NCBI RefSeq assembly: GCF_014646075.1
Contig: NZ_BMMT01000003.1
Span: 186,001 to 250,000 of the forward strand
Source: Saccharopolyspora thermophila
Lineage (GTDB): Bacteria; Actinomycetota; Actinomycetes; Mycobacteriales; Pseudonocardiaceae
Direction: 5' to 3'
Length of the DNA stretch: 64,000 nt
Part shown: in pieces, positions 15,280 to 16,622 of the stretch
Layout: each line of letters opens with the position of its first letter
Position numbering within the stretch: position 1 is the first letter of the stretch
Notes under the pieces: generated by a model
Database searches by the model: none
What the model was told of the DNA's origin: nothing
The model's input: only the letters and a program-made list of their open reading frames with translations
Made by a program: the position numbers and the translations under genes

Positions 15280-16020
15280 ATGGACCTGATCAACCAGATC
15301 GACACGGCGATCCAGGCATGCCTGGCGTGGGCCGCGACGCTCGACCCGTGGCTGTGCGTGCTGAGTGCGGTGCTGCTGCTCGCGTTGGAGACCTCCCTCC
15401 TCGTCGGTCTGCTGGTACCGGGCGAAGCGACCCTGCTGCTGACCACCGCGGTGCTGGGGCCGCGGTGGGCACCGGTCCTGTTCGCCGCCGCCGTGGTCGG
15501 CAGCGTGCTCGGCCAGTCCGGCGGGTACTGGTTGGGCCGGGCCGTCGGCCCTGGGCTGCGCGCGACCTGGCTGGGCCGCCGGATCGGCGCGCACCGCTGG
15601 CAGGCCGCAGCGGATGTCGTGCAGGACGCGGGCGGACGCGCGCTGGTCACCACCCGCTTCGTCGCCGTGGCGCACGCGGTGGTCCCGGCCATGGTGGGCA
15701 CGCTGCGGCTGCCGTACCGCCGGTTCGCCGGGTTCGCGGCGATCGGCGCCGTGCTGTGGGCCGCCGTGCAGACGGTCGTCGCGGTGGTCCTCGGCGAGGC
15801 CGCCCGCGCGGTCGGCTACGGCTGGGCGGTGCTGGCGCTGGCCTGCGCAGGTGGTCTCGCGGCGGTGTGGGTGATCGCCCGCAGCGCTCGGCAGCACGCG
15901 AAGCAGCGCACCGCACCGGCAGCCGCAGCGGTCGCCGAGAAGCGCAAGCGGTGCCCCCACGAATCGCGCCAGCCTGATGTGTCCCCGGTCGACTTGTCGC
16001 CGGGCGGGCAGGAAGCCTGA
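15280..16020 (+). CDS. DedA family membrane protein
   Basis: This is a 246-residue integral membrane protein. The DedA/SNARE-associated fold is seen in ETSLLVGLLVPGEATLLLTTAVLG (re-entrant loop with the conserved E and PGE), GQSGGYWLGRAVG, and TRFVAVAHAVVPAMVGTLRLPYRRF (the R and P characteristic of the family), with a final membrane helix near 185-210 and a basic soluble tail. DedA proteins are proposed undecaprenyl-phosphate or phospholipid flippases; the exact substrate is unknown here. The ATG at 15280 opens the protein with MDLINQIDTAIQA. Transcribed towards chorismate mutase, 303 bases from the AroQ start, with an independent leader region between. Confidence 0.88.
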   Translation: MDLINQIDTAIQACLAWAATLDPWLCVLSAVLLLALETSLLVGLLVPGEATLLLTTAVLGPRWAPVLFAAAVVGSVLGQSGGYWLGRAVGPGLRATWLGRRIGAHRWQAAADVVQDAGGRALVTTRFVAVAHAVVPAMVGTLRLPYRRFAGFAAIGAVLWAAVQTVVAVVLGEAARAVGYGWAVLALACAGGLAAVWVIARSARQHAKQRTAPAAAAVAEKRKRCPHESRQPDVSPVDLSPGGQEA

Positions 16021-16165
16021 TCATCATGAGTCCCAAGATCCTCGCTGGTCAGCAGCCACGTCAACGGAATAACTCGAACGTGTGATCGACGCCGGGCGTC
16101 CACGCTCCGGGAGGTGCGGCCCACCTCATGGCCCGCCGACCGCGGCTTGTGGCACACTGGTCCCC

Positions 16166-16219
16166 GTGCTGACGCAGACGTACGAGTTTTTCTACGGGCC
16201 CGGACTCCGGCGCCCGTAG
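16166..16219 (+). CDS. leader peptide rich in Tyr/Phe upstream of chorismate mutase
   Basis: A 17-codon frame, GTG to TAG, reads VLTQTYEFFYGPGLRRP. Codons 6, 8, 9 and 10 are Tyr, Phe, Phe, Tyr: the two amino acids made from the chorismate mutase product. The stop codon lies inside the right arm of hairpin 16192-16219. The GTG has no ribosome-binding site, but CACACT lies 7 bases upstream, the spacing expected for a leaderless transcript. The peptide itself is unlikely to have a function; its translation would be the sensor of charged tRNA-Tyr and tRNA-Phe. Confidence 0.7.
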   Translation: MLTQTYEFFYGPGLRRP

Positions 16220-16276
16220 CTGCGTGAGCTCACAAACCACTACGACGCCCCGGGGTCCAACGGACTCGGGGCGTTG
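16192..16276 (+). promoter_or_regulatory. probable ribosome-mediated attenuator of chorismate mutase
   Basis: Four pairing segments can be read. Segment 1, CTACGGGC (16192-16199), overlaps the aromatic codons and pairs with segment 2, GCCCGTAG (16212-16219), which contains the leader stop. Segment 3, CTACGACGCCCCGG (16240-16253), can pair either with segment 2 (CGTAG/CTACG) or with segment 4 (GGACTCGGGGCG, 16262-16273). The 3:4 pairing gives a strong terminator-like hairpin at 16243-16276 with loop AAC. Stalling at Tyr/Phe codons would free segment 2 for 2:3 pairing and prevent the 3:4 hairpin, the classic amino-acid attenuation logic. Folding was done by eye. Confidence 0.65.
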
Positions 16277-16322
16277 CGCGTTCCGGGACCGGGGACGGGG
16301 CCAAACCGGAGGACAACGCCCG

Positions 16323-16622
16323 ATGAACGCCGCCGTGGACGGTGACCACCAGCAGTCCGACACCACCGCGCAGGACACCGCGGAGACGATCGACAGCTAC
16401 CGCGCGGAGATCGACCACCTGGACGCCGAGATCCTGCGCCTGGTCAAGCGCCGCGCCGAGATCTCCCGCCGGATCGGCCAGGCCCGGATGGCCGCCGGTG
16501 GCCCGCGGATCGTCTACAACCGCGAGATGGACGTCCTGGCCCGCTACCGCGAACTCGGCCCGGAGGGCCGCGAACTGGCCATGATCATGCTCCGCCTCGG
16601 GCGGGGCCGCCTCGGCCGCTGA
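16323..16622 (+). CDS. aroQ: chorismate mutase, AroQ type (short cytosolic form)
   Basis: This 99-residue all-helical enzyme converts chorismate to prephenate, the first step to Phe and Tyr. The AroQ core is residues 22-95: the long first helix SYRAEIDHLDAEILRLVKRRAEISRRIGQARM has the catalytic Arg and Lys pattern, followed by PRIVYNREMDVLARYREL. It ends MLRLGRGRLGR, as in the M. tuberculosis cytosolic enzyme Rv0948c, which needs DAHP synthase for full activity. The ATG at 16323 has GGAGGA 10 bases upstream. It lies beside pcrA and DedA genes, as in related genomes. A leader peptide and alternative hairpins precede it, suggesting control by aromatic amino acids. Confidence 0.93.
   Translation: MNAAVDGDHQQSDTTAQDTAETIDSYRAEIDHLDAEILRLVKRRAEISRRIGQARMAAGGPRIVYNREMDVLARYRELGPEGRELAMIMLRLGRGRLGR

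Follow-up and report, generated by a model that had tools for sequence, protein, structure and literature searches.

Conserved aromatic leader and candidate transcription attenuator upstream of the chorismate mutase gene aroQ in Saccharopolyspora thermophila and related actinomycetes

The stretch of DNA analysed here, 64,000 nucleotides of the 5.36-Mb genome of Saccharopolyspora thermophila and hereafter termed the window, carries on its plus strand a short reading frame with clustered Tyr and Phe codons upstream of aroQ, the gene for a chorismate mutase. The product of this enzyme, prephenate, is the precursor of Phe and Tyr only. The locus raises the question of whether expression of aroQ is coupled to the supply of these two amino acids through a leader peptide and an attenuator, as a preliminary description of the DNA had proposed.

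The leader frame and its alternative pairings

The regulated gene (16323-16622, plus strand) encodes a monofunctional chorismate mutase of 99 amino acids, which is matched by Pfam CM_2 and, above cut-off, by NCBIfam PRK07857 and CM_M_hiGC-arch. Its closest solved relatives are the intracellular M. tuberculosis chorismate mutase Rv0948c and variants thereof, followed by 5hub/5hud, which we take to be the C. glutamicum chorismate mutase. Family models and closest structures thus identify a chorismate mutase, placing aroQ in the pathway of the amino acids that the leader would sense. An open reading frame call with the aroQ start at GTG 16224 was rejected because a GGAGG-type site followed by ATG is common to the relatives in the genus and because the intervening stretch has conserved RNA pairing; with the GTG start, the terminator hairpin would fall within the gene. 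The ATG at 16323 is preceded by GGAGG (16308-16312, plus strand), from its position the likely aroQ ribosome binding site, which lies outside all of the hairpins described below. Further upstream, a VTT-domain gene (15280-16020) lies on the same strand and points towards aroQ.

The leader peptide frame, VLTQTYEFFYGPGLRRP* (16166-16219, plus strand), comprises 17 codons from a GTG start at 16166 to a TAG stop at 16217-16219 and translates as V-L-T-Q-T-Y-E-F-F-Y-G-P-G-L-R-R-P. F/Y conservation and a stall simulation, both presented below, point to Tyr-Glu-Phe-Phe-Tyr (TAC GAG TTT TTC TAC, 16181-16195) as its regulatory codons. The end of the frame can fold into a protector hairpin, 1:2 (16192-16219; left arm 16192-16203, right arm 16207-16219), in which a perfect 8-bp stem, CTACGGGC (16192-16199) with GCCCGTAG (16212-16219), is extended by CCGG/CCGG across one bulged base to 12 bp, with a folding energy of -21.6 kcal/mol. 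Strand 2 (16202-16219) can pair instead with strand 3 (16240-16258, as obtained by folding the free RNA to 16258) to give an antiterminator, and strand 3 overlaps the left arm of a terminator-like hairpin, 3:4 (16243-16276), of -24.3 kcal/mol. All of these elements are on the plus strand.

The frame, the 8-bp stem, the CGTAG/CTACG pairing and the hairpin, 46 nt 5' of the aroQ ATG, were thus all found where the preliminary description had placed them, and some of its details were revised. It had placed the aromatic codons over the left arm of the stem, which applies to the last base of the Phe9 codon and to the Tyr10 codon but not to the others; the remaining aromatic codons are just 5' of the left arm, close enough for a ribosome stalled on them to cover it. 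The stop codon does lie inside the right arm in the window, as had been pointed out, but this is a minority form among the relatives, most of which have a stem one base longer and a leader that ends in ...TPAPVAA* or similar, past the right arm. Likewise, CGTAG (16215-16219) does pair with CTACG (16240-16244), but most of the antiterminator, formed by GGACTCCGG (16202-16210) with CCGGGGTCC (16250-16258), had been overlooked. The fold of the whole leader gave a z of -2.75, with equal stability in 3 of 200 shuffles; conservation is far stronger evidence against chance than this fold.

The T-rich tail after hairpin 3:4 (16274-16282, plus strand) is weak, its T-tract (GTTGCGCGTT) being short, and a generic terminator scan found no intrinsic terminator in the window. 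Runs of 4 to 6 T after the hairpin were counted in at least 14 of 56 leaders by a rough script that undercounts and that misplaced some hairpins, for example that of locus L045, which shows six T. At the other end of the leader, an extended -10-like element, TGG-CACACT (16150-16158, plus strand), is located 7 nt 5' of the leader start codon and may function as its promoter; a generic sigma-70 scan found no promoter in the window. A GTGGCANACT-like element with at least eight of the ten letters was present in 48 of 59 rows, spaced 6-7 nt from the start codon, the same score having also helped the script to choose the leader frame. No Shine-Dalgarno sequence was found in the window between the -10-like element and GTG 16166, which, together with the 6-7 nt spacing of that element from the start codon, suggests that the transcript is leaderless and starts at or near 16166.

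Conservation of the leader, its codons and its pairings

AroQ was present in all 61 genomes of a first set, which consisted of the own genome, 21 congeners, 15 further members of the family and 24 from other families of the order. An aromatic leader preceded aroQ in 59 of the 61, namely in 37/37 genomes of the family and in 22/24 of those from the other families; the two exceptions were L061, where a short form has just Tyr-Phe, and L040, where the codons are lost. The preliminary description had proposed, as its test, a search for conserved aromatic codons and compensatory stem changes across Pseudonocardiaceae. Both were found, and conservation of the leader extends well past this family. 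An automatic rule, which asked for a frame of 10-30 codons with three or more F/Y in a stretch of four codons and covered the 330 nt upstream of aroQ, was positive at 78 of 80 named loci, these being the best 80 of 181 AroQ matches. Of the controls, 4 of 1,600 dinucleotide shuffles and 11 of 1,134 flanking pieces passed it, as did none of 80 reverse complements. When a -10-like element ([CT]A...T) was also required 5-8 nt before the aromatic frame, 71 of these best 80 of 181 were still positive, versus 0 of the 1,600 shuffles and none of the reverse complements or flanking pieces. The loci missed by the rule were a 32-codon leader with an FFYG core, over the length limit (L099), and a near-miss with a one-base frameshift (L101). 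Under a looser rule, no Phe/Tyr leader was found before paralogous mutase genes of the sampled genomes (0/11); one paralog frame (L238) passed by virtue of two Trp codons.

A wider sample of the class comprised 148 genomes, of which 38, the own genome included, had AroQ at E <=1e-8; three genomes of this sample (G043, G050 and G056) also belong to the 61-genome set. Among the 37 other genomes with AroQ, 31 had an aromatic leader, 5 did not and 1 was cut off by a contig end. The form of the leader varied, with RFFYGYRPPVAVAAV in one family, FLFTYGNRPTGCHGRAA in f18, a family of large genomes that are probably Streptomyces, and PPFYGDRARSPLHR in f104, and 12 of the 31 leaders had a single Phe-Tyr pair before the stem. 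These twelve (L219 and L221-L231, from f104 and others) included some of more than 45 codons. The script did not list L219 and L221-L224, whose leaders have fewer than three aromatic codons; these were found by reading the DNA, with their translations checked.

The five aroQ genes lacking the aromatic leader (L208, L209, L211, L212 and L214) all belong to family f8, which, to judge from AroQ similarity, is probably of mycobacterial type (f8/g23). At L208 and L209 the leader promoter is kept, the aromatic codons are gone and a common block, GGTCTGTTTCACGGTGAA, stands before aroQ, perhaps as a different control element. L211, L212 and L214 have aroQ without the attenuator, and a -10-like element 7-8 nt before GTG suggests that at L211 and L212 aroQ itself is leaderless.

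Selection on codons and pairings was assessed in an alignment (A1) of 36 of the 56 leaders. Fifteen within-genus near-duplicates and the divergent or longer leaders L046, L049, L053, L054 and L055 were left out, and L040, L047 and L060-L062 are outside the 56-leader list, so that the pairing percentages describe the typical form and not every lineage. Of the 108 cells for the three core codons, 104 encode F or Y and the other four Leu (3) and Glu (1), with both synonymous alternation (TTT/TTC, TAC/TAT) and F-to-Y exchange. In the protector, the 10 aligned pairs are kept in 95.8% of cells, with 4 pairs changed on both sides. The corresponding values are 88.8% and 7 pairs for the terminator and 85.8% and 6 pairs for the antiterminator; since the counted structures came from the same sequences, these percentages lean towards them.

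All three pairings are mutually exclusive and all are conserved, far above controls slid by 1-3 columns. Their observed covariation scores were reached by 0 of 500 shuffles, whereas 20 shuffles for 1:2, 16 for 3:4 and 58 for 2:3 had at least as many pairs with two-sided changes as observed, and 73 of the 500 did as well as 2:3 in further pair types; because the shuffles ignore relatedness, they overstate significance. Strand 3 varies in step with strands 2 and 4, which fits the requirement of an attenuator. At L038, for example, a joint change is seen, with TCCGCGG in the loop and right arm and CCGCGG in strand 3.

Predicted consequences of ribosome stalling and competing explanations

In the stall simulation, the RNA left free by the ribosome was folded with the A site at each codon in turn, the front edge of the ribosome at 13 nt and the RNA ending at strand 3. 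For the leader of the window, a ribosome at codons 1-5 was predicted to leave the protector, whereas stalling at codons 6-10 (Tyr, Glu, Phe, Phe, Tyr) gave the antiterminator; codons 11-12 gave a weaker antiterminator and later codons neither structure. A window of positions permissive for the antiterminator was present in 36/36 leaders. Of the 298 codons inside it 129 were aromatic, compared with 8 of 109 codons at protector positions and 6 of 293 after the permissive window, and in the computed folds of the 36 leaders stalls after it did not free the antiterminator. In these predictions the aromatic codons coincide with stall positions that release the antiterminator, and the counts were barely altered for ribosome edges of 11-15 nt. 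In 16 of the 36 leaders, that of the window not among them, the antiterminator was predicted even with the ribosome at codon 1, which implies that the protector would have to win there by folding first. When strand 4 was added, the terminator formed at every stall position at equilibrium; as in the classical trp attenuator, the antiterminator would thus have to be in place by the time strand 4 is transcribed.

The attenuation reading given in the preliminary description is supported by the conserved codons (104/108), the compensatory pairings and the stall simulation. On this basis we propose, with a probability of about 0.9, that aroQ is controlled by ribosome-mediated attenuation of transcription, the element sensing charged tRNA-Phe and tRNA-Tyr. 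According to this model, a transcript starting at about 16166 would be translated from its first codon. When Phe or Tyr is short, the ribosome would stall at codons 6-10 and cover the left arm of 1:2, leaving strand 2 free to pair with strand 3 as the latter emerges; with 2:3 formed, the terminator would be blocked and RNA polymerase would read into aroQ. When both Phe and Tyr are plentiful, the ribosome would reach the stop codon and cover strand 2, or 1:2 would reclose, so that strands 3 and 4 could form the terminator and transcription would stop about 46 nt before aroQ.

The weakness of the T-tract, in the window and in most leaders of the set, would be compatible with a switch that acts on the initiation of aroQ translation or on mRNA decay and not on termination, and translation attenuation is said to govern genes for cysteine biosynthesis in M. 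tuberculosis (PMC13236596). We consider this unlikely here, given that the aroQ GGAGG (16308-16312) is outside all three pairings, that runs of 4-6 T do follow 3:4 in at least 14 of the 56 leaders and that 3:4 is itself kept by compensatory changes. The nascent peptide might also be the sensor, with a small molecule or drug, not uncharged tRNA, triggering arrest of the ribosome, and within Pseudonocardiaceae the FFYG core and the residues following it (often R-T-P-A-P-V) are indeed conserved. The residues encoded by the stem past FFYG nevertheless vary by family and through frameshift, from GPGLRRP in the window to FLFTYGNRPTGCHGRAA and PPFYGDRARSPLHR in other leaders, whereas the stall positions retain their aromatic codons, making an arrest peptide very improbable.

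It is scarcely credible that the hairpin is an ordinary terminator, serving the upstream gene or antisense transcription, with an aromatic frame before it by accident. The VTT-domain gene does run towards aroQ on the same strand, but the frame, the promoter element and the three pairings are conserved jointly across the order, and both the shuffle and the paralog controls were negative. Moreover, aroQ at L099 and L101, for example, lies next to a divergently oriented gene for a UvrD-type helicase, as identified by comparing its letters with those of the helicase in the window. Attenuation of transcription through charged tRNA remains our preferred reading.

Aromatic leaders elsewhere in the phylum and relation to known systems

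A covariance model (R1) of the leader was used to search 396 genomes of the phylum with strict filters, which lose weak matches. In the own genome the aroQ site alone scored well, and partial matches with E of 0.77 and 0.98 were ignored. At E <=0.01, 48 of the 396 genomes gave a match: 18 at aroQ, 16 at DAHP synthase, one at anthranilate synthase component I and 13 that are apparently spurious. On reading, these 13 (L165, L173, L176-L181, L184, L187, L189-L192) were rejected as chance terminators, and a second match in G043 (L175) looks spurious too.

Outside the class, 16 of 26 R1 matches consisted of an aromatic leader and a terminator hairpin before a DAHP synthase gene (L163, L164, L166-L172, L174, L183, L185, L186, L188, L193 and L194), the enzyme at L164 scoring above the cut-off of the family models. 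The leaders contain Phe and Tyr and, in 13 of the 16, Trp as well (e.g., MNGYFGFWFFYGGDSPA and MKRYFWFFGTSGSPEADAS). RNAalifold analysis of ten of them supported the terminator hairpin and little else. The match at anthranilate synthase component I (L182, genome G281) is a Trp-bearing leader, MTSLGVSWFWLRGSMSPVSPRA, with a terminator, about 320 nt into the reverse complement; this gene was identified from 164 residues only and scores below full-length model cut-offs.

These leaders may descend from an ancient aromatic attenuator of the Actinomycetota with a lineage-dependent target, chorismate mutase in the Actinomycetes and type I-beta DAHP synthase elsewhere, an idea to which we give somewhat less than even odds. 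If it is true, each attenuator would respond to the end products of the branch that it controls, Phe and Tyr in one case and Phe, Tyr and mostly Trp in the other. In lineages whose mutase and type II DAHP synthase act as a complex, attenuation of the small partner, the mutase, would then control the branch while sparing the common trunk.

A single type II DAHP synthase and a prephenate dehydratase were found in the own genome, both without an aromatic leader, and a search with PF00793 for a type I DAHP synthase there gave no match. Both genes (L244 and L245) look leaderless, with a -10-like element about 6 nt before GTG. Given these genes without a leader and an AroQ that is nearest to the M. 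tuberculosis mutase, it is plausible that attenuator control of prephenate supply is added to allostery between enzymes. Control of the mutase in C. glutamicum is described as acting via its complex with DAHP synthase (PMC11802643, in the text available).

The aroQ attenuator would add a direct input from tRNA charging at the aromatic amino acid branch point, which also feeds natural products in Saccharopolyspora and Streptomyces-like producers, and it makes the genetic level of chorismate mutase control directly testable. Its natural variants (Phe-Tyr only, Phe-Val-Phe-Thr-Tyr and lost) form a series for asking which codons matter, and the single-pair leaders offer a natural test of the minimum number of regulatory codons.

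Searches against the Rfam cis-regulatory families (T-box, riboswitches and leaders) gave no match at gathering score in the window, and at six loci with E <=1 only two chance-level matches, with 24.9 of 70 and 22.2 of 40 gathering bits. No description of an attenuator of aroQ or chorismate mutase in actinobacteria was found in the open-licence literature searched, which is not proof of absence. Several known systems are close to it in design. E. coli pheA uses the same protector/antiterminator/terminator logic as is proposed for the aroQ leader; its target is the mutase-prephenate dehydratase, and the pheA leader contains Phe codons and is preceded by a ribosome binding site. The aroR-aroF attenuator of C. 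glutamicum, reportedly the work of Neshat et al. in 2014, has a leaderless aroR leader.

The likeness to pheA (pheL) further includes the use of a leader peptide for attenuation of chorismate mutase activity by Phe-charged tRNA, as summarized in the accessible portion of one article (PMC11802643). The excerpts available likewise describe C. glutamicum aroF as preceded by the aromatic leader aroR (PMC4046766, PMC11802643, PMC11525245). Compared by description, this is also an actinobacterial Phe/Tyr leader (Phe-Tyr-Phe) before a shikimate-pathway gene, but its target is the DAHP synthase gene aroF and not aroQ, and aroR is described in the available text as responsive to Phe limitation and not to Tyr (PMC11802643). 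The S. lividans trpL, ilvL and leuL leaders are similar in being leaderless frames with regulatory codons, several with hairpins and T-runs, whereas none of the eight leaders listed in the accessible part of that study is for Phe/Tyr or chorismate mutase (PMC8079986). Transcription from the start codon itself is reported, in the passages available, for the S. lividans trp, ilv and leu leaders and for the C. diphtheriae ilvB leader (PMC8079986, PMC5784534). As presented in the available text, the uORFC-13-1 motif of Acholeplasma aroF resembles the aroQ element as a proposed Phe-sensing upstream frame with a terminator before a shikimate gene but differs in being confined to Acholeplasma and environmental sequences, with 24 representatives, in its DAHP synthase target and in having a ribosome binding site (PMC8632094). 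A 2005 survey of the Actinobacteria recorded, in the part available, no conserved RNA structures upstream of Phe or Tyr operons (PMC1262725). The conserved aroQ attenuator seems undescribed, while its proposed mechanism is classical: the kind of attenuation is known from E. coli pheA and C. glutamicum aroR-aroF, and what seems new is the aroQ target, together with a wide range.
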